From Spirochaetaceae bacterium (GTDB lineage Bacteria > Spirochaetota > Spirochaetia > Treponematales > Breznakiellaceae), in NCBI GenBank assembly GCA_031279015.1, contig JAITJI010000072.1:1-39604 (forward strand): a stretch of DNA of 39,604 nucleotides, written 5' to 3'. Positions 11,488 through 29,919 of this stretch are shown here, piece after piece. The position numbers were made by a program, and so were the translations under genes. Positions within the stretch are counted from its first letter, which is position 1. Each line of letters starts with the position of its first letter. The notes beneath the pieces were generated by a model, which saw nothing but the letters and a program-made list of their open reading frames with translations, was not told where the DNA came from and made no database searches.

Positions 11488-13452
11488 CTATTTCTGACTT
11501 ATTCTGAGGGTATAATCGGTTTCCCAGAAACCGTCCGGTTCCAGGACGATCCGGTTTACCAGCATGATGCAGGTAGACTGATACCTATTGGCTATCTGAT
11601 CGTTCATGCGGCAGGGAAGCCACAGGGGGTACAGCCATAGATCAAAGGCCCGGCCAGAATGCAGGGCGATGGTTACCTCGTTTTTGATATCCCGGAATTC
11701 AATATTCCCCACCTCTAAAAGTTCCTCTGCCCCGTCCACCGGCTTTAGAAGAACCGGCTCTTTGGCGCCGGAGCAGAAGCCGGATATCTGCTGGTAGGAA
11801 TCCCCCTCTCCGGGAAAGGCAAGATCGATCCGGGGAATAAAACAAAACCGTTCCGTCTCCTCTCCGTGGTTTATCAACCGGTACCGGACCGTAAGGGTAT
11901 CCTTTTTCAGTTGATATTTTTTTTCAATTTCCACAAGCCCAAAGGGCAGTTCCGGCCTGGGGGGAAGCCGGAAGCAGAGTTTCCCGTGAACCCGGTCCAG
12001 ATCCAGGACTTCGTACTGCTCTATCCCGCAACAACGTCCGGCAGGGTCCTCATAAAAACTGCCGGCGGCGGATTCTTTGGCAAGCTCCTGAATAGCACTG
12101 TCAAAGGGGGAGAGAAAATCCACAAAGGCAGTTCTACGGATATTCTCCACGGAGAAAGCATCCCCAGGGCCGGACCGGCGGGGGGCCATGGTATCCAGAT
12201 AATTCCAGGTTTTGGGGAGGTAGTCCAGTTCAAAAATACTGGCCCCCTGGCTTTTAATGTAACAATTGATGTGAACATCCTGAAAGAGATACTCCCATTC
12301 CCCGTCAAGGTCAAAGTCAAAGACCAAGAGGGAGGGGACAAAGGCTCCCTTTTCCCGGGTGATCCGTTCGGCAACCAGAAGAGCCCGGTATACGGCATTC
12401 CGGGTGGTATTACGGTAAATACCGCCGTATTGGGTTTGGCAAAACACATCGTAACCCTGGGCCTTCCAGAGTTCTTCCCGGGCGGTACGTTTGCGGGACT
12501 TATCCCCCCGAAGCTGGTTGATAAGCACATTAATGAACATCATCTTGGAGTAGATGCCATTGGCTTCAGGGTAGTTGATGAGGAACTGCCGGGGACTGCC
12601 CGCCTCGGTCCATCCGGCGGTTTCTCTCTCCCGGTTTTGGAAACTGAATTCCCCTTCCAAAGAATCGGAAAAAAAGGCCTTTTTGAGCCCCCGGAGCGTT
12701 TTGTACAGCTTCCCCGGGGTGGTAAATTCTACAAAGGAATCACAGCGGGCAAGGTCTTCAAAGAATGCCTGAATCTCTTCATCCGTGACGGATTTTTTGC
12801 TCCCCAATGCCAGGTCCGGAAACACCGAAATGATCCGTCTTCTCCCTTCGTCCGCCAGTTTTTTCAGAATCAGGGAGGGCTTTTCCCGGAAAAAATCGGC
12901 GGCGCAGCGATTTGAGAAAGGGAAAATAGTTATCAACTTCCCCTGATCCTCGCTGATACAGGGGGCATAAAGATCCGGCCCGGACAAACCCGCCCGCAGA
13001 AACTGCTCCTCACTGAGAAAGGTGTACCCCATACCACAGGCGTTCAAAACCCCCAGCAGATTCTGTTCCCAGGCAAGGGCGGACAGCCAGCAACCCTGAG
13101 GGCGTTTCCCAAACTCCCTGCGGAGGTAGGTGGTAAGCATTTCAATCTGGCCTATCTTGTCCGGCAGGGGCAAGAGGGGCAGCAGGGGCTCATAAAAACC
13201 ACCCCCCAGCAATTCCACCTGTTTCCGGGCAACCAGATCCTTCATGAGCATAAAAAATTCGGGATGGATTTTTTCTATCCGCTGGAGTAAAACCCCGGAA
13301 TAATGCAAAACCGCCTGAATCGCAGGGTATTTATTCAAATTGACAACAAAAGGTTTCAGCTTTTTTGTATATATCCATTCCAATTCATCATCCCCGGTTC
13401 CCACGGGGACATGATTGTAAGAACCAATAATTAATTTTAGAGGAAATTCCAT
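11488..13452 (-). CDS. GH57-family (alpha-amylase/4-alpha-glucanotransferase-like) protein, nucleophile missing
   Basis: A 654-residue protein, the length of Thermococcus 4-alpha-glucanotransferase (about 659), with the same plan: an N-terminal glycoside hydrolase family 57 barrel (motif NHVPVG at 13-18, usually HNHQPVG), then helical and C-terminal beta domains. Conserved region 3, normally WLTER-VW, reads WLSALAW at 122-128, so the nucleophile glutamate (E123 in the Thermococcus enzyme) is alanine A125. A DGEWEYL segment corresponds to region 4, where the acid/base aspartate may be retained. GH57-like proteins lacking catalytic residues are known; this one may bind glucan, act in regulation, or use a different residue such as E129. 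It follows rnfA on the same strand but a terminator-like hairpin stands between. Confidence 0.8.
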   Translation of the reverse strand: MEFPLKLIIGSYNHVPVGTGDDELEWIYTKKLKPFVVNLNKYPAIQAVLHYSGVLLQRIEKIHPEFFMLMKDLVARKQVELLGGGFYEPLLPLLPLPDKIGQIEMLTTYLRREFGKRPQGCWLSALAWEQNLLGVLNACGMGYTFLSEEQFLRAGLSGPDLYAPCISEDQGKLITIFPFSNRCAADFFREKPSLILKKLADEGRRRIISVFPDLALGSKKSVTDEEIQAFFEDLARCDSFVEFTTPGKLYKTLRGLKKAFFSDSLEGEFSFQNRERETAGWTEAGSPRQFLINYPEANGIYSKMMFINVLINQLRGDKSRKRTAREELWKAQGYDVFCQTQYGGIYRNTTRNAVYRALLVAERITREKGAFVPSLLVFDFDLDGEWEYLFQDVHINCYIKSQGASIFELDYLPKTWNYLDTMAPRRSGPGDAFSVENIRRTAFVDFLSPFDSAIQELAKESAAGSFYEDPAGRCCGIEQYEVLDLDRVHGKLCFRLPPRPELPFGLVEIEKKYQLKKDTLTVRYRLINHGEETERFCFIPRIDLAFPGEGDSYQQISGFCSGAKEPVLLKPVDGAEELLEVGNIEFRDIKNEVTIALHSGRAFDLWLYPLWLPCRMNDQIANRYQSTCIMLVNRIVLEPDGFWETDYTLRISQK

Positions 13453-13559: not shown

Positions 13560-14141
13560 CTATACACCCAAAACCCGCAGCAAGATGACCGCCACGGATG
13601 AGGATATGAGGGAAAGCAAACCCATGGAGACAAACAGCAGGGGCATACCCCGCAGTATAGGGGGAATCGTTTCTATGGAAGAACGCCTGTAGATCGCGTT
13701 CAAAATGCGGGCGGCGGCGAAACTGCCCAGGGAAAACCCAAGGGAGAGAACTACCGCCCCGGCAAAAGAGCCGGCCAGGCGCATGGTGAGGAAGAAGGCC
13801 GCAATGGCAAGTCCGTCATGGACGCTCTTACCGGAGGTTTCCGGCCTATCCTGCCCGGGGAGAACAAGATATTTCGCCGCCTTTTCAAAACCCTGCCGAA
13901 CCGCTACAATGAGGGGAAAGACCAGAAAATATTCAAAAAACCCCAGGGAAAGGGGACTAAGGATATATATAAAAAACAGCCAGAGCAGGAGTACCGTCAC
14001 AAAAAGAAGGAACCACTGGAAAAGGGTATACCGTACCGGTCTTTGGTCTTCGGCTTCAAAATTTTGGATTCCCAGACCAAATTGCAGGAGGGGATTAAGG
14101 GAAAGACCTGAAAAGATCGCCAGAATCGCCAGTGCGCTCAT
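13560..14141 (-). CDS. rnfA: RnfA-like electron transport complex subunit, without cysteines
   Basis: A 193-residue polytopic membrane protein with about six hydrophobic segments, the size of RnfA/NqrE. In that family a cysteine in LGxCPF (near residue 25) and one in PLIxxNC help bind an intramembrane iron-sulfur cluster with RnfE. Here the sites read LGIQNF (Q26) and PLIVAVR (R82), and the protein has no cysteine anywhere. The C-terminal half, including the FSLGSFAAARI segment, still fits the family. The ATG overlaps the rnfE stop (ATGA), so it is the last gene of the operon. The symbol rests on position and fold; normal redox function is doubtful. Confidence 0.75.
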   Translation of the reverse strand: MSALAILAIFSGLSLNPLLQFGLGIQNFEAEDQRPVRYTLFQWFLLFVTVLLLWLFFIYILSPLSLGFFEYFLVFPLIVAVRQGFEKAAKYLVLPGQDRPETSGKSVHDGLAIAAFFLTMRLAGSFAGAVVLSLGFSLGSFAAARILNAIYRRSSIETIPPILRGMPLLFVSMGLLSLISSSVAVILLRVLGV

Positions 14142-14773
14142 AGGTTTCCCTCCGTATGGATATAACGGCTTCTAAAACGACGGAAGAGGGCAATGCCGTA
14201 GCCCAAAAGCAGTAATGCCCCGGCGGATCCGCTGATTATCCGTACCGGGGAAAACAATTCACCGGATCCGCTAAACAGCTCGATTATACCCCGTAGACCC
14301 CCGGGCAGGGAAAGGGAACCGTAACCCAGGGGTTCCCGAATCAGGGCCAGGGCGAGGATGAGCCCCCCCAGGGTCAGGGCCTCAAACACCACCCGCAACA
14401 CCCCTTCATCAGGGGCCAGGCCCTTCACCCGGTCAACGACTTCGGAGCTGATACAGGACACCGGCGCCAGGGCGATAATGAGGGCGGTTTCGATGGCGAG
14501 GAAGGGACTGGTCAGGGTCAATACCAGGAGATACAAACTGCTGAACAGGGCCGATAAAAACACGACGATCAGATTCTTTCCCTTTTTGGGGAAAAAGGGC
14601 CCGGCAAAACAGCAGACCAGGGCAGTCAATCCGTAGACCCACACCAGGACGCCCAGGGCGATGAAGGCAAAGGCGGTCCGGCTTGAGGCCATTACCAATA
14701 AACCCGCGCTTGTAAGGGTCGATAGGGGGGCGTAGGAACCCCAAAACAAATGGTTTTGATACCGCTGCATCAT
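14138..14773 (-). CDS. rnfE: RnfE/NqrD-like electron transport complex subunit
   Basis: A 211-residue membrane protein with about six helices, matching RnfE in size and place. The first ligand motif of the family (LGLCPxLA) is replaced by WGSYAPLS around residues 11-18, with no cysteine. Cysteines remain at 54, 55 and 107; C107 (APVSCISSE) lies near where the second ligand is expected, but the flanking residues do not match PLIxxNC. LTLGGLILALALIREPLGYGSL in the second half resembles the conserved RExLGxGS region of the family. The ATG overlaps the rnfG stop; two successive ATG codons are present and the first is used here. Confidence 0.75.
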   Translation of the reverse strand: MMQRYQNHLFWGSYAPLSTLTSAGLLVMASSRTAFAFIALGVLVWVYGLTALVCCFAGPFFPKKGKNLIVVFLSALFSSLYLLVLTLTSPFLAIETALIIALAPVSCISSEVVDRVKGLAPDEGVLRVVFEALTLGGLILALALIREPLGYGSLSLPGGLRGIIELFSGSGELFSPVRIISGSAGALLLLGYGIALFRRFRSRYIHTEGNL

Positions 14774-15297
14774 TGGATCCTGCCTTGAGAAATGGCGGTC
14801 ATGGCGCTGCGGAGCACCGTATTACCGGCTTCGATACGCCGGGTATAGATCCGCAGAGTCTCCGGGGGCAGCCGGTCCAGGACCTTTGCCGAGTGATTGC
14901 TCAGGGGTACAAGGGCATTGACCGCCCCCCCGGGGGAAACAACTGCAAAAAACGAGGCGGGGATCCCGTCGAACATTATAGGGAAAACCAGACCCCAGTC
15001 TTCGGAGTTGGCCAGGGTAAACCAGCTGCCTAACCGGGTAGCCCTACCGGGCATCTGCCAGGGAAGAATCGGGGCCTCCAGGCGCAGGGACAGCCCGGAA
15101 GTCGTCAGCACTCTGTTTACCGAATTTAGGAGAATCCTCCCCCGAATCGGCTGGGTAAAGAACCAGGACAGGCTCCCCAGAAGGAGTATAACCGCTATCC
15201 AGGCGGCGAAGATCCCCATATTCCGGAAATTCCCCGGCCTTCCCTCTTCCGGTCCTGTCCCGGGGGATTTCACCGGCAGGACATGTTCCCGGTTCAC
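14770..15297 (-). CDS. rnfG: RnfG-like subunit with a degenerate flavinylation motif
   Basis: A 175-residue protein with one membrane helix (about 28-48) followed by an extracytoplasmic domain, as in RnfG/NqrC. RnfG normally carries FMN on the last threonine of SGAT near its C-terminus, attached by ApbE. The matching place reads A157-G158-N159-T160 in IEAGNTVLRSAM: the threonine is kept but S, A and the upstream D of the consensus are lost. Covalent flavin attachment is therefore uncertain. The protein is shorter than usual (about 200). The start codon is GTG, overlapping the rnfD stop as GTGA. Assignment depends on gene order and topology. Confidence 0.65.
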   Translation of the reverse strand: MNREHVLPVKSPGTGPEEGRPGNFRNMGIFAAWIAVILLLGSLSWFFTQPIRGRILLNSVNRVLTTSGLSLRLEAPILPWQMPGRATRLGSWFTLANSEDWGLVFPIMFDGIPASFFAVVSPGGAVNALVPLSNHSAKVLDRLPPETLRIYTRRIEAGNTVLRSAMTAISQGRIQ

Positions 15298-16391
15298 GGA
15301 TTCCTCCTTGTTTCAACGGGCCAATACCGGTACAGTTTTTGGCGCTCAAACTCCCGGACAGCGGGGGTCAGGGCGTTGAAGAGAACAACGGCAAAAAAGG
15401 CGCCGTAGGGTTCACCCCCGGGATACCGGAAGACAAAGGCAAATATCCCCGTCAGGCAGGCGAAGATCCCCGAAGCGATTCCCGATTTTGGGCCTGTGGC
15501 CGGATCGGACGCCAGGAGGAATGCCGCCGGGATAATCCCGCCGGAAAAGAGGGCAAAGAGGATATCCCCCTGTCCCAGGCTTCCCCCCAAGGGCAGGGCG
15601 CCAAAGAACCGCACCGCCAGGCTGTAACAGACAAGGAATGCCAGGGGAACCCGCATACGGCTTACCCGGAAAGCGATAATGAGGATGGTCCCCAGGAGCA
15701 GAGCCAGAAGCCCCCGGTCTGCGATAATACCCGGTTCACGGAACAACAGGAGATCAATATACCCGACGGGTAATTCGGAATTGGTAAATGCAAAAATCGT
15801 GTCGTTCAAAAAGGCGGTAAAGCCGGCAACCCCGGAAAGAACCGCTGATGGTACGGAATTGGCCCGCAGTATCTCCAGGGGAGAAACCGGAGGCCCCGTT
15901 AGTCCCCGGCCAAGGCTGCCGTAAAACAGGGCCAGGGGGGAACCTTCCAGCGCCCGCTCAAAGGCATCGGGCCATGAAAAACGGACAAAGAGCCAGCCCC
16001 CCAGGGCGGTATTCAACCAGTTTGATCCCAGGCCGCCAAAGCTGTGTTTCACCACGATCATGGCAAAGAGGGCGCCTATGAAGGCCTGGAAGGGGCCTAA
16101 GGTGTTGGGAAGCAGCAGCGCAAAGATCAGGGCCGAGGCAACAGCGCTCCCATCCCACAGAGTCCGGACTCTGCACTTGCGGTTGCAGATCCATTCCACC
16201 GCCACAGCGGCAAGGACTGCGGCAAGGGCAAGCTGCAGGGAAACAAAAGAATCCGTCAGAGAGGATTGAAGTACAGCAAGACCCGCACAGAAACTGACCA
16301 GACACATCCGTTCGACGGTTGACCGGGAGAGGTTTACCTGGGGCCGCTGAAACGGGGCCCGCACTGACAAAGCAGCATCCCTGTTCAGCAT
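15294..16391 (-). CDS. rnfD: RnfD-like electron transport complex subunit
   Basis: A 365-residue polytopic protein of the RnfD/NqrB family. Clear family blocks are LGSNWLNTALGGWLFVRFSWP (around 121-141) and GGIIPAAFLLASDPATGPKS in the C-terminal third, followed by GIFAFVFRYPGGEPYG and LFNALTPAV. In normal RnfD, FMN is attached to the threonine of SGATPL. The corresponding segment here is TGPPVSPLEIL (165-175): PL is preceded by serine S170 but SGAT itself is gone. The ATG is one base after the rnfC stop. The fold assignment is firm; the loss of the canonical flavin site is seen directly by motif. Confidence 0.85.
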   Translation of the reverse strand: MLNRDAALSVRAPFQRPQVNLSRSTVERMCLVSFCAGLAVLQSSLTDSFVSLQLALAAVLAAVAVEWICNRKCRVRTLWDGSAVASALIFALLLPNTLGPFQAFIGALFAMIVVKHSFGGLGSNWLNTALGGWLFVRFSWPDAFERALEGSPLALFYGSLGRGLTGPPVSPLEILRANSVPSAVLSGVAGFTAFLNDTIFAFTNSELPVGYIDLLLFREPGIIADRGLLALLLGTILIIAFRVSRMRVPLAFLVCYSLAVRFFGALPLGGSLGQGDILFALFSGGIIPAAFLLASDPATGPKSGIASGIFACLTGIFAFVFRYPGGEPYGAFFAVVLFNALTPAVREFERQKLYRYWPVETRRNP

Positions 16392-16392
16392 A

Positions 16393-17697
16393 TTAATTCC
16401 CCCTCAGGGCGGCATCCGCTATGGTGGTGCTCAGGGGAAGCCGGGATGGACACACCACCTCGCAACAGCCGCAACCGTGACATTCCGCCGCCAGGGTTGC
16501 CAGAGTCTCCCGGTTCCGGCGGATCTGGGCGATCTTGAAGAGTTCCTCCGGGTCCAGACCCACGGGGCAGACGCTCCGGCATTCCCCGCAGCCGATACAT
16601 CTCCGGGCAAAGGTTCCTCCCAGCCGGGATTCCGGAATGGCGAATACTGCATAACTTGTTTTTATTATGGGCTCATCAAGATCCGCCACTGCCCTTCCAA
16701 GGATCGGTGAACCGGAGGCTATCCGCTTTGGCTTATCCACAAAACCGCCGCATTCGGCAAATATTTCACCGATCCGGGTACCGATCCGTACCTTCATCAC
16801 CTGGGGATTCTTGACCGCCGCCCCGCCAACCGCTACATACCGGTCAAGGATAGGTTTCTTCAACTTTACCGCATCATGAACGGCCGCCAGAGTAGCCGGT
16901 CCCAGGATGAGCAGGGAGCCCAGGGGGATCTCCTCCCTTTTTTCGTAGAGCCGCAGAACCAGTTCCAGCTCCCGCCTGTTCCGTTGGGGATACCGGGAAC
17001 CGACCAGAATCAGGGAAGAGGAAACATCCCAGGATTCCGCCTCTGCCAGAAGCGAAGTCCCCAATGCCTGCTCTGACCGGGAGACCGCAAAAACAATGCG
17101 GCCAATCCGTCCCGCCCGGGCAAGGATGACGCTCCCCTCCACCACAGCCTTGAGCCGTTCCCGGCAGAGCACATAATCCGCGGCAAGCCAGGGATCGTCA
17201 AAGACACAACGGACCACCAGGGTCAGAGGTTCCCGGGCGGAATGAAGACCCGAGAGCATGTCCGATACAGGATATCCCGTTCCCTCCATCTCCACGATGC
17301 CGTATTCAGAGATAAGCCGTTGCAACTCAAAGGGAGAAAGCCCCTGCCAGGAGAATACCTCCTCCGGTTTCCCCAGCTTTTCAAAGGCCCCCTCAAGCCG
17401 AATCACCAAGGCATCGCTGATTTGCCCATCCGTTGTCTTTCGGGATACCATCCGGATTACCTTGCCCGGAACAGTGGCATGGATATTCGTAGACCCAAAA
17501 CCCTGCCCCCGGCCGATAAGCATACCCTCTTTTACGTAATCACCCACGGAAACAATGGGATACGCCCGGCTTCCGGTGTGCTGAACCAGGGGTATCACCG
17601 AAAGGCCGGGAAGAAAGGCGATCACACTTGAATCTTTTGCCGGAACCGTGGAATCCTCAAAATAAATCCCTCCCCGGGGGAATGAATATACTTTCAT
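16393..17697 (-). CDS. rnfC: RnfC-like electron transport complex subunit with two 4Fe-4S motifs
   Basis: A 434-residue peripheral subunit. Order: N-terminal barrel-sandwich domain (PIVSVGDYVKEGMLIG, ATVPGKVI), a Rossmann-like domain, a SLBB-like segment, and a C-terminal ferredoxin domain with complete motifs C367-C370-C373-C377P and C406-C409-C412-C416P. Standard RnfC has GLGGAGFP and NGAECEPYL motifs for FMN and NADH. Here they are EMEGTGYP (136-143) and RCVFDDPWL (163-171), so flavin/NADH binding is probably altered or lost while cluster binding is intact. It overlaps the preceding membrane protein gene by ATGA. Confidence 0.88.
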   Translation of the reverse strand: MKVYSFPRGGIYFEDSTVPAKDSSVIAFLPGLSVIPLVQHTGSRAYPIVSVGDYVKEGMLIGRGQGFGSTNIHATVPGKVIRMVSRKTTDGQISDALVIRLEGAFEKLGKPEEVFSWQGLSPFELQRLISEYGIVEMEGTGYPVSDMLSGLHSAREPLTLVVRCVFDDPWLAADYVLCRERLKAVVEGSVILARAGRIGRIVFAVSRSEQALGTSLLAEAESWDVSSSLILVGSRYPQRNRRELELVLRLYEKREEIPLGSLLILGPATLAAVHDAVKLKKPILDRYVAVGGAAVKNPQVMKVRIGTRIGEIFAECGGFVDKPKRIASGSPILGRAVADLDEPIIKTSYAVFAIPESRLGGTFARRCIGCGECRSVCPVGLDPEELFKIAQIRRNRETLATLAAECHGCGCCEVVCPSRLPLSTTIADAALRGN

Positions 17698-19181
17698 GCT
17701 GCAACCTGTTTATCAGTATACACTAAAAGGGCGTCCTTTTTCCTGTAGGATCTACCGGTACCAAAGAGGGACAACAAACCCGGAATAAAAATGATAAACA
17801 CCGGCATCAGATCCCAAACCCCCCGGTCCGGTACAGGCCGGAGGACCTCACTGCCAAGAAAAATCACAAGATCCTCCAGCGGAAAGGGCGGAAAGTCCCC
17901 TGTCTCCGGATACTCCTCCGCAAGGGGAATACTCCCGGAGATAAGGCCATCAGCCCCCAGGGTATAATGGAGGTAGGGGTAAGACCCCGTCCCCTCCCCC
18001 GGGAGCAGCTCCGCCGGCCCGGCGCCCAGGGGACGCAGGGAAAAGAAGGCCTGAAAAACCGCATGGCGGTAGTAGTCTCCGGCGGAGGGGAGGAACAAAT
18101 CCGTCCCCCTGCCATCGGTATCCCGGAAATCACTCCTGAACGGCAGCGAAGACCCCAGGGAAACCAGGGAAGCCAGGGCAAAGGGAAGGACGATCCGGGG
18201 GAATCGGGAGAGGCGCAGTGAAGGCTCCCGGATATCCACCGGCAAAAAGATGATGTGATCCCGAATCTTCCCCCGGTTTGCCTCGGTTTGGAGGGATGTA
18301 CAGAGGACGCAAAAAAAAGAGACCAGCGCCGCCAGGGCTATCAGAACCGGTATTTCCCCGGCAAAACAGATGAGCCCGTAGACCAGGAGGAACACAGCCG
18401 CCAGGACCCAGGAGATCCGGTAGCTTCCCCATTGAAATCCCCCGGTCCGGGAGGAAAAGGACTGCATCCTGTAACGGCGGGAAATAAAAAACTCCCTCAA
18501 AGGGGCAAGGGTTACGCCGAAGAGTCCGAAAAACGCCCCCGACAGGGCAAAACCCGCCGGACCGTTCAGGGCAAAGGGGGCCAGAAAGGGCAGCAGCGAG
18601 AGGGCCGGCAAAAAGGCCCTTCCGGACTTTTCCGGACGAAAGGCGGAGAGGATCAGGGTTCCCAGGGACGCGCATCCAAAGAGAATCAAATACCACAGGA
18701 CAGGCTGCGGGGCCCGGGGCAATACCAGAGAGTAAGAGATCTCCCCCAGTGACAGGGCAACTTTTTTTTGCAGAACCCGGTAACCGTCATAGTATATGAG
18801 GGGTCCCTTTGCAGCAGACAGGGGGATATAAAAAAAACGCCGCCCTTCCCGGACAAAAAAATCGTGAAGCTGTTCCGCATAACCATCATTCCGGGGATCA
18901 AAGACCTCAACCCGGTTCCGAAATTCCGGAAGGGGGATCCGTTCCAGGGTTCCAAAATCATCTAAAAACACCCACTGGGAGGATTCAGAGATGAGTCCCC
19001 CAATGCCGTTCCGGTTCAGGGCCTCCACAACAGGCCCTTCGGCAACGGTTTCATCCAGGGAGAGGATCCCATAGCCTCCGCCGGCCCTATGGGGAATGAA
19101 GGCCTTCGTATAAACCAGGGACAGGAGGCCGAAAAGCAGGGGGATCAATAGACATGCCGCAAGGCTTTTACGCGTTAACAT
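17694..19181 (-). CDS. Polytopic membrane protein of unknown function, coupled to rnfC
   Basis: A 495-residue protein I do not recognise. Residues ~7-28 form a membrane anchor or signal segment, then comes a ~130-residue extracytoplasmic stretch (about 30-155). About eight hydrophobic helices follow between 160 and 355, with short loops. A second soluble stretch (about 355-460) contains DLFLPSAGDYYRHAVFQAFF, and a final helix lies near 462-478. There is no cofactor motif or cysteine cluster. It is joined to rnfC by an ATGA overlap and lies 11 bp after the DUF212 gene, so it is an integral part of the Rnf operon. It may be an accessory or replacement subunit; that is inference from position only. 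Confidence 0.75.
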   Translation of the reverse strand: MLTRKSLAACLLIPLLFGLLSLVYTKAFIPHRAGGGYGILSLDETVAEGPVVEALNRNGIGGLISESSQWVFLDDFGTLERIPLPEFRNRVEVFDPRNDGYAEQLHDFFVREGRRFFYIPLSAAKGPLIYYDGYRVLQKKVALSLGEISYSLVLPRAPQPVLWYLILFGCASLGTLILSAFRPEKSGRAFLPALSLLPFLAPFALNGPAGFALSGAFFGLFGVTLAPLREFFISRRYRMQSFSSRTGGFQWGSYRISWVLAAVFLLVYGLICFAGEIPVLIALAALVSFFCVLCTSLQTEANRGKIRDHIIFLPVDIREPSLRLSRFPRIVLPFALASLVSLGSSLPFRSDFRDTDGRGTDLFLPSAGDYYRHAVFQAFFSLRPLGAGPAELLPGEGTGSYPYLHYTLGADGLISGSIPLAEEYPETGDFPPFPLEDLVIFLGSEVLRPVPDRGVWDLMPVFIIFIPGLLSLFGTGRSYRKKDALLVYTDKQVAA

Positions 19182-19192
19182 GGGAAGGGATC

Positions 19193-19681
19193 CTATAAAA
19201 ACGCGTAAGCGGCGGCTATGAAAATACCCAACAGCGCCCCCATGACCACTTCCAGGGGAGCGTGTCCGTGTACTTCTTTAATCGAATGAAATTCTATATT
19301 CGATTTTTCCGCAAGCTGCCGGCCCAGCATATTAATGATTCTGGCCTGAATACCCACGGAACGACGGACTCCCATGGCATCCCTCATGACAATAAGGGCG
19401 ATGAAAAAGGATACAACAAAAAGATTGGATTTAACTCCCTCCTGAACCGCCACCTGGGTAGTCATGGAAGAGACCAGAGCCGCATGACTGGAAGGCATGC
19501 CGCCGGTACGCCATGCAATGGTTTCCAGAATTTCCCTGCCTGTTCTTCGATGTCCTCTGAGCAATACAATAACCGCCTTTAGAAGCTGCGCAAGCAGCCA
19601 GCTTAACATAGAAGATAAAAAAATCGGGTTTTCAATAAAGGCCCTTACCGATTCCACCCGCATAACTATGAGAAAAGACAT
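19193..19681 (-). CDS. Divergent PAP2 family (DUF212) membrane protein
   Basis: A 162-residue protein with four or five hydrophobic segments. WRTGGMPSSHAALVSSMTTQV (57-77) is the conserved PSSHA motif, and KEVHGHAPLEVVMGALLG near the C-terminus is the second family motif (GHTPxEVxxGxxLG); both belong to DUF212 (acid phosphatase/vanadium haloperoxidase-related). In PAP2 enzymes these motifs hold the catalytic histidines, so a membrane phosphatase acting on a lipid phosphate is possible. It is the first gene of the operon leading to rnfA. The start at 19681 lacks a good ribosome binding site; the in-frame ATG at 19663 is an alternative. Confidence 0.85.
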   Translation of the reverse strand: MSFLIVMRVESVRAFIENPIFLSSMLSWLLAQLLKAVIVLLRGHRRTGREILETIAWRTGGMPSSHAALVSSMTTQVAVQEGVKSNLFVVSFFIALIVMRDAMGVRRSVGIQARIINMLGRQLAEKSNIEFHSIKEVHGHAPLEVVMGALLGIFIAAAYAFL

Positions 19682-28320: not shown

Positions 28321-29919
28321 ATGATGAATGAGTTCCCGAAAAACGGCATCTTTATCGTTAAAAAGGTCCTTCTCGCCATATTACTTTCATGTTTTTCCGT
28401 CTTTACCGGCGCTCTTGAAGTCGATACTGCGGAACTGGACAAGAGCAGTTCAACGCCGGTCATCTTTATAAATTACGAAGGTCCCCATGCACGGATAGAA
28501 ACCCGGAATCAGATTCGAAACATCGGGTTCTCCCAGGGAAACCTCATACTCTCGGGGGTTCTCAGGACAGGTACCACGGCCCGGTATTTTGTTATCCATT
28601 CGGTGACCGATCCTGAAGGTGACAGGCTTGATGCGGACATCTTCGGCCTTGGAGTTGACGTGGGGGTGGATCATATCAGGAACCTCAGGCTCATCATCCA
28701 GGGATACCTCGAGGGGGCCTATACCTATTCTTCTGCCGACGCCGCCCTTCTGGCCGAGTACATCACCGTTTACAACGCGGTCTTCCGGGGAAACTGGGAC
28801 TACTTCAATGGCCGGTACAAGAAGCCGGTACTGGGGAATCTGGATCCGCAACGGACAGGTCTGTCCATTCGGTTTGATGAATGGCCCGGACAGACCCTCA
28901 TGCTCATCCCCCTGGCCCTGGGAATCTCCAATACGCTGAGTGCGGTGGACACCACATCCCTGACCAGCGCCCGGGTAATAGACGAGATGCGTACCCGGGA
29001 GGATATGGGGATTGAACAGCGTAAGGATATGGTAGACCTCAAGGAACGGGAAGCTGAACAGGCCGAACAGCGGGCGATCCTCCAGCGGGAAGGCATTACC
29101 GCAGAGGAAGAACGGATCGCCCGGGAACGGTCCGAAGCTGCTGCAGAACGAGACTCCATAAACCGGGAACGGCAGCAGATCGATGAGGCGGAGGCCGCGG
29201 GCCGGACCAGCCCCGAAGAGACCCGGCAGGCCCGGGAAGAACTGGCCCAGCGGGAAGCGGAGACGGATAAAAAGGAAGAAGATCTTGATAAGCAGGAAGC
29301 CGCCCTGGAAACCCGCCGGGAGGAGGCGGAAAAGACAGAACAGTTTGCGGAACAGAAGGCCGCCGAAGCCCAGCAGGAACGGCAGGACATTGCCCGGGAC
29401 CAGCAGGGACTCATCGCCCGGGAAGACCGGGAGGGACCGGCTCCGGTGGGACTGCTCACCCTGCGGATAAACAGCTCCGATTCGCCCCTGGGCCGGCTGG
29501 TGCGGCTTCACCCCGATTCCGGGGTGGAACTCCGATCTTCCCCCCTGACAACGGTCAACGTCCACACCCTGATCCAGCCGGAGGGCAGGATCCTGGCAAT
29601 AGCCGGGGAAAACCGGGGAAGCGGCGCCATACGGCTGGTGGAGATAGACGGCGAAACCCTGGAGATAGCTAACCAGGGGGCCGACGACATCCACCCCCAG
29701 AGCCTCCTGTGGACAAACGGGGGTAGCCTCTACGCCATCACCCTTTCCTCGGGCAGCCTCTACCTTGGCAGGTTTAACACCGGCCTGACCCTGGAAGCCC
29801 GGTCAACCGTCACGGTCCACCCCTATGGCGCCCCCCGTTTTGAAGGGGATCAGGTTCTCATCCAGCGGAGCGACGGGACGCCGGTAATCCTCAATGGAAC
29901 AAGCCTACAGGAGAAGTGA
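28321..29919 (+). CDS. P83/100-family spirochaete protein
   Basis: A 532-residue protein of the spirochaete P83/100 antigen family. A signal sequence covers about 14-31 (KKVLLAILLSCFSVFTGALEVD). An N-terminal globular part (32-225) includes the conserved VIFINYEGP and RNLRLIIQGYLEGAY stretches. A long charged coiled coil (about 230-365) is rich in E, R, Q and K heptads. A C-terminal beta-rich domain (about 375-530, LLTLRINSSDSPLGRLVRL) completes it. It is probably periplasmic. Two ATGs are adjacent (28321 and 28324); GAGGAG lies 5-8 bases upstream of both. The function of the family is not known in detail. Confidence 0.88.
   Translation: MMNEFPKNGIFIVKKVLLAILLSCFSVFTGALEVDTAELDKSSSTPVIFINYEGPHARIETRNQIRNIGFSQGNLILSGVLRTGTTARYFVIHSVTDPEGDRLDADIFGLGVDVGVDHIRNLRLIIQGYLEGAYTYSSADAALLAEYITVYNAVFRGNWDYFNGRYKKPVLGNLDPQRTGLSIRFDEWPGQTLMLIPLALGISNTLSAVDTTSLTSARVIDEMRTREDMGIEQRKDMVDLKEREAEQAEQRAILQREGITAEEERIARERSEAAAERDSINRERQQIDEAEAAGRTSPEETRQAREELAQREAETDKKEEDLDKQEAALETRREEAEKTEQFAEQKAAEAQQERQDIARDQQGLIAREDREGPAPVGLLTLRINSSDSPLGRLVRLHPDSGVELRSSPLTTVNVHTLIQPEGRILAIAGENRGSGAIRLVEIDGETLEIANQGADDIHPQSLLWTNGGSLYAITLSSGSLYLGRFNTGLTLEARSTVTVHPYGAPRFEGDQVLIQRSDGTPVILNGTSLQEK

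Follow-up and report, generated by a model that had tools for sequence, protein, structure and literature searches.

The window analysed here (the whole stretch of 39,604 nucleotides, a contig of a Spirochaetaceae draft genome in 138 pieces) carries on its minus strand an open reading frame (13560..14141) for an RnfA-like membrane subunit of 193 residues. As an earlier sequence-only reading had stated, its translation contains not a single cysteine. This poses the question whether an Rnf complex can lose its electron path through the membrane and still be maintained by selection, and if so, what its membrane core would be kept for. The same genome contains a second, complete Rnf operon (contig C105, order C-D-G-E-A-B) with all cluster ligands of RnfA and RnfE present, and the organism thus still possesses Rnf. 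A search limited to open-access literature returned no paper describing the operon in the window or its cofactor loss.

Ligand columns of the RnfA- and RnfE-like subunits

The RnfA-like protein was identified from its reading frame and from profile matches. On its own it matches NCBIfam TIGR01943 (E 1.5e-4), while Pfam PF02508 gave no match for the single A or E protein of the window. A profile of the family matches the solved RnfA 9eri_A with an E-value of 1.3e-28, and hhalign of the operon A and E proteins against their canonical counterparts gave 99.5% and 99.0%, respectively. The pair is homologous to known Rnf subunits.

In the cryo-EM structure of the Acetobacterium woodii complex, the membrane metal site is coordinated by C25 and C113 of RnfA together with C25 and C108 of RnfE (PMC11889175), and equivalent residues serve as ligands in Clostridium tetanomorphum (PMC9588780). 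The sequence-only reading had placed the two lost RnfA ligands at Q26 and R82. The alignment confirms Q26 (codon CAA, 14064..14066, minus strand), which sits in the column of C25. R82 proved to be a misalignment, because MAFFT and HMMER share a register that places C113 at G110 (codon GGA, 13812..13814, minus strand): MAFFT sets V-H-D-G of the window opposite the canonical TTNC, and HMMER sets T-T-N-C of A. woodii RnfA against A-F-D-G of the family profile. This position is a glycine in 72 of 78 relatives.

The neighbouring RnfE-like subunit (211 residues, 14138..14773, minus strand), assigned by homology, had been described as lacking its first motif. This holds, and the first ligand column is now occupied by G24 (codon GGT, 14702..14704). 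The second ligand is retained, as C107 (codon TGT, 14453..14455) falls in the column of C108 and is the only one left of the four cysteines that bind the [2Fe-2S] cluster between RnfA and RnfE (hereafter the AE ligands).

The losses are not peculiar to the window. We assembled 80 named loci, mostly from termite-gut Treponema and Breznakiellaceae-type genomes, and could read the ligand columns in 78. Neither RnfA C25 nor RnfA C113 nor RnfE C25 is kept in any of them (0/78 each), and RnfE C108 is kept in 50. An RnfA entirely free of cysteine occurs in only two of the 78; the complete lack of cysteine in the window is thus incidental, and the conserved trait is the lack of the ligands. An alternative ligand set was sought in the A/E family alignment, which has no other conserved cysteine or histidine column to take their place, and the reading of ligand loss stands. 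We also considered that an aspartate in the new motif A-Y-D-G makes up for the charge that a reduced cluster would have carried. This idea was rejected: the position is mostly D or N, yet G, Y, S, T, V and E occur there as well, and such variability does not mark a fixed site.

Operon architecture and remaining cofactor sites

All genes of the operon lie on the minus strand in the order DUF212-X-RnfC-RnfD-G-like-RnfE-RnfA. X/C, D/G, G/E and E/A each overlap by 4 bp and C and D are separated by 1 bp, a tight packing that suggests coupled translation. The first gene of the conserved cluster encodes a DUF212 (divergent PAP2 family) protein (19193..19681). It is followed by X (17694..19181), a membrane protein of 495 residues, in which predicted periplasmic domains flank both sides of a transmembrane bundle. 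A profile search of X against solved structures gave chance-level matches only and no detectable homologue, and its alignment contains no conserved cysteine. The downstream neighbour, a GH57 glucanotransferase-like protein (11488..13452, minus strand), is syntenic and is not assigned to the complex here.

The RnfC homologue (434 residues, 16393..17697) is still recognisable by its Complex1_51K fold. Its FMN/NADH motifs GxGGxGFP, ECEPY and YPQGGE are gone, and its ferredoxin domain is retained with two [4Fe-4S] motifs, CIGCGECRSVC (16567..16599) and CHGCGCCEVVC (16450..16482), both of which are present in all 77 full-length relatives. In the RnfD homologue (365 residues, 15294..16391; ten transmembrane segments by simple hydropathy) the segment bearing the covalent FMN threonine is missing. 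This residue, Thr156, is found in none of 103 loci, the segment being deleted or replaced. The riboflavin ligands of RnfD are well preserved, with the N123 column intact in 102 of 103 loci and D249 present as D or E in 103 of 103; in the window they are N127 and D296. The rnfG position is taken by a small membrane-anchored protein of 175 residues (14770..15297) that has neither an [S/T]GAT motif for FMN attachment nor a match to Pfam FMN_bind, and whose profile search against solved structures yielded chance-level matches only. That it is an RnfG derivative rests on its position and on the G protein of a related locus, L051, which matches FMN_bind; from the window protein by itself no homology could be detected. 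The window operon contains no rnfB, and no NqrF-type match was found among its genes.

Compared with the Rnf complexes of A. woodii (9eri) and C. tetanomorphum (7zc6), the operon thus shares homologous A, E, D and C subunits, the order C-D-G-E-A, a multi-helix D with riboflavin ligands and the [4Fe-4S] pair in C. It differs in lacking RnfB, the AE ligand set, the FMN sites in G and D and the FMN/NADH motifs in C, and in adding X and DUF212 upstream. A precedent for a cofactor-stripped RnfC-type subunit is NqrA of Na+-NQR, which has no NAD, FMN or Fe-S sites and retains a structural role (PMC4014512, PMC12174285). Na+-NQR as a whole, however, has retained an electron route through the membrane, with the NqrD/NqrE metal site as part of it, and it is this route that the window operon has lost.

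In A. woodii, electrons are proposed to pass from RnfB via the AE cluster, FMN-G, FMN-D, riboflavin and the RnfC clusters to FMN-C and NAD+, and Na+ to move through RnfA/E (PMC11889175). Altering the AE cysteines, RnfD N123/D249 or RnfG T185 abolishes ferredoxin:NAD+ activity and growth (PMC11889175). Of this route the window complex has lost the first four stations and the last one, which leaves at most riboflavin and the RnfC clusters. It is therefore very unlikely that electrons cross the membrane here or that the complex pumps in the manner of Rnf. Judged by the A. woodii biochemistry, the missing AE ligands alone would preclude ferredoxin:NAD+ transfer and hence a pump of the known type. 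The sequence-only reading, which held that the transmembrane electron path is lost and the scaffold kept, is supported, and the loss reaches beyond the AE cluster to RnfB and the FMN and NADH sites, with the qualification that two [4Fe-4S] motifs in RnfC and the riboflavin N/D pair in RnfD remain as redox capacity.

Outside the operon, the genome holds 13 matches to FMN_bind (PF04205) spread over many contigs, suggesting that it encodes many flavinylated extracytosolic proteins. Elsewhere in the window, a plus-strand frame (28321-29919) is a full-length match to the Borrelia P83/100 family (PF05262, E 8.7e-102).

Stepwise loss of cofactor sites among spirochaetes

Synteny of the cluster DUF212-X-C-D-G-E-A-GH57 extends over several families of the order, with reduced forms occurring across the class. 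Of 34 other genomes in the window's family, 30 carry an RnfE-like relative. Purifying selection acts on A, E, D and C, whose pairwise dN/dS among close relatives falls mostly within 0.1-0.35. In one G pair (L097/L099), dN was about equal to dS, over a frame that possibly starts too early. The genome searches covered one genome per species, some of them incomplete, so that an absence in a draft weighs less than one in a complete genome.

In a tree of RnfD, all members of the operon form one clade (support 100/100) apart from the canonical copies, and starting from the complete ligand set the tree requires no fewer than four changes. Its least derived member, L051 (family f2), is sister to the rest and has kept every site checked: four AE cysteines, the S-G-A-T site in RnfD, an RnfG that matches FMN_bind and, where the contig breaks off, the beginning of RnfB. 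Four further loci (L042, L043, L049 and L050) retain the four AE cysteines and RnfB, and three of these (L042, L043 and L049) also the RnfD threonine. L044 is left with three AE ligands and L048 with one, RnfB still being there in the latter; L045 to L047 have lost both the AE set and RnfB, with the RnfD threonine surviving in L045 and L047. In family f3 the AE set is gone except for one residual cysteine in L037, some members have a shortened RnfB, and the D249 column reads W, R, Q or E. In the window family, AE set, RnfB and RnfD threonine (0/103) are lost and the riboflavin asparagine (102/103) and D/E (103/103) are retained. These comparisons indicate that the operon is an ancient spirochaete Rnf paralogue that has lost its cofactors stepwise and retained its membrane core. 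Such a graded natural series would separate the membrane core of Rnf from its cofactors and so reveal which parts of an electron-ion coupling machine selection keeps without electrons.

Several loci deserve separate mention. A shortened RnfB occurs in one of the 78 relatives, the sole window-family member with such a gene, where an RnfB-like protein of 192 residues with 13 cysteines stands behind a ligand-free RnfA (L055:3818-4396 and L155:11658-12236). In one f3 genome, RnfD is split into two reading frames (L040:7860-9004), possibly by a frameshift. L074 (G030:C7:42000-56000) represents a third Rnf type, complete with RnfB and all AE ligands, whose RnfD branches between the canonical and the operon copies.

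The series appears to extend into pathogens. In a genome of 1,139,633 bp (G044), which we take to be T. pallidum, the D gene covers the position given for tp0151 (PMC7162541), and the stripped operon is the only Rnf-like locus. Its A and E proteins align with the operon clade (97% and 98.5%) and have no AE ligands; no canonical Rnf-Nqr family match, RnfB FeS domain or X was detected in this genome. A flavin-based RNF pump has been proposed for T. pallidum in publications of 2020 and 2025 (PMC7512555, PMC11717252), and TP0148-TP0152 receive no mention in the main text of the T. pallidum proteome paper. This atypical RNF (TP0151, an RnfD, and its neighbours) shares operon clade and synteny with the window and apparently belongs to the stripped clade. 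It has been described as a redox ion pump, yet in the genome read here it has neither the A/E ligands nor RnfB nor an FMN site in RnfD. The proposal for T. pallidum energy metabolism thus concerns a clade devoid of the established electron route across the membrane, which makes it testable and, by present evidence, doubtful.

The most reduced form was seen in family f7 (36 genomes in two genera, 0.9-1.9 Mb, often with a main contig of ~0.96 Mb and many small ones), presumably the Borreliaceae. All 36 genomes encode a single RnfC::RnfD fusion of ~773 residues, recognised in Pfam as RnfC_N, Complex1_51K and NQR2_RnfD, the first two below the curated cut-off. Among the 12 fusion copies that were read, none contains a [4Fe-4S] motif or any CxxC, and the A-like protein beside the fusion is free of cysteine in 11 of these loci and has two in one. 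No RnfB FeS domain was found in the Borrelia-type genome. The order DUF212-X-C-D-A is shared with the operon clade, to which profile comparison assigns C with 99%, D with 95% and A with 76% probability. The arrangement differs in that the ferredoxin domain of C is deleted, C is fused to D, and RnfE, G and any Fe-S motif are missing. In the RnfD tree the Borrelia-type row, L190 and the T. pallidum-type row sit on long branches, so that their placement within the clade is unsure, and shared synteny supports their common descent with it. Many spirochaetes, apparently including the agents of syphilis and Lyme disease, carry an ancient second Rnf copy devoid of most or all electron-carrying parts.

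The X protein of family f7, encoded upstream, carries a lipobox. From its map position (prfB follows) and this lipobox, its likely counterpart in B. burgdorferi is bb0071. Transposon mutants of bb0071, a putative lipoprotein gene, were not recovered from larval ticks (PMC6516651), polar effects of the insertion being possible.

Possible roles of the retained core

For the window lineage, we consider Rnf-type redox pumping very probably absent. Since selection has kept the operon intact through the loss of its electron-carrying parts, its present task is probably not the one that gave the complex its name. The best overall explanation, which we hold with somewhat more conviction than doubt, is a stepwise-stripped Rnf paralogue that was repurposed as a membrane complex.

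Two trivial explanations can be set aside with confidence. The window comes from a fragmented draft, and errors at the cysteine codons could in principle mimic ligand loss. The same losses, however, recur in 78 loci from dozens of separate assemblies, complete chromosomes among them (for example Breznakiella homolactica, L088), which rules out a sequencing or assembly artefact. A functionless, decaying pseudo-operon might account for the long branches of several lineages and the broken RnfD frame of L040, yet is highly improbable given intact overlapping genes over most of the class, dN/dS well below 1 and persistence in every f7 genome despite genome reduction.

Readings that preserve electron transfer require more attention. 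The complex could still be a redox-driven ion pump that uses replacement cofactors or borrows RnfB and RnfG from canonical Rnf or other flavoproteins, as the current literature on T. pallidum implies; many members indeed share their genome with a canonical Rnf. We regard this as very unlikely. A and E have no substitute ligand column, the AE cysteines are essential in A. woodii, and neither the T. pallidum-type nor the Borrelia-type genome has an RnfB FeS domain. Sharing of RnfB with a canonical complex is also contradicted by genomes that keep the stripped operon and have no canonical Rnf (G028, G044 and G183); in the 99%-complete G028, the operon evidently does not lean on one. Electron transfer might alternatively be confined to the cytoplasmic half, between a soluble carrier, the RnfC clusters and the RnfD riboflavin, with X or a flavinylated lipoprotein, in the periplasm or the membrane, as partner on the far side. 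The near-universal RnfC clusters and riboflavin ligands favour such a half-chain, and so do FMN_bind proteins that the T. pallidum-type genome and G028 encode at other loci. Against it, Borrelia-type genomes retain the core with the ferredoxin domain deleted, family f3 has altered the D249 column, FMN-D, which connects riboflavin to the periplasm in A. woodii, has no attachment site, and X offers no conserved cysteine. On balance this half-chain seems unlikely, less so than a complete pump.

Our preferred reading, the repurposed membrane complex, would assign it a lasting function for which no electrons need to cross the membrane. The A(E)/D core might form a gradient-driven pathway for ions or solutes, or a platform that hands energy on to the periplasmic portion of X, and the surviving RnfC clusters and riboflavin could provide a cytoplasmic redox input that gates the core. 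Either role fits the anatomy of the retained parts. C (cluster-free in the Borrelia type), D and A are common to all core-bearing lineages, mostly together with X and DUF212. We consider a redox-independent function of the core probable, and advance the ion-pathway or X-coupling role specifically as a tentative suggestion. The cavity-lining residues of A and E are variable in the window lineage, as expected if an ion pathway were unused, which argues against an ion-pathway role. Likewise, few features are kept better than both [4Fe-4S] motifs and the riboflavin asparagine, which points to a redox task in most lineages and speaks against redox-independence. FMN_bind proteins of several of these genomes could act in trans.

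Whether a whole respiratory ion pump has turned into a redox-independent machine within one class, through living intermediates from L051 (full) to the Borrelia type (Fe-S-free), is a question on which we are nearly evenly divided, leaning slightly to the negative. If it has, spirochaetes, even those with strongly reduced genomes, retain a further activity of the Rnf core that can be separated from electron transfer. X may also have a function of its own. In L191 (family f9; G179:C1:1208000-1224000), DUF212 and X adjoin GH57 with no RnfC, D, E or A between them, and two other Rnf copies are present in the genome; in some cases X can evidently do without the core beside it.
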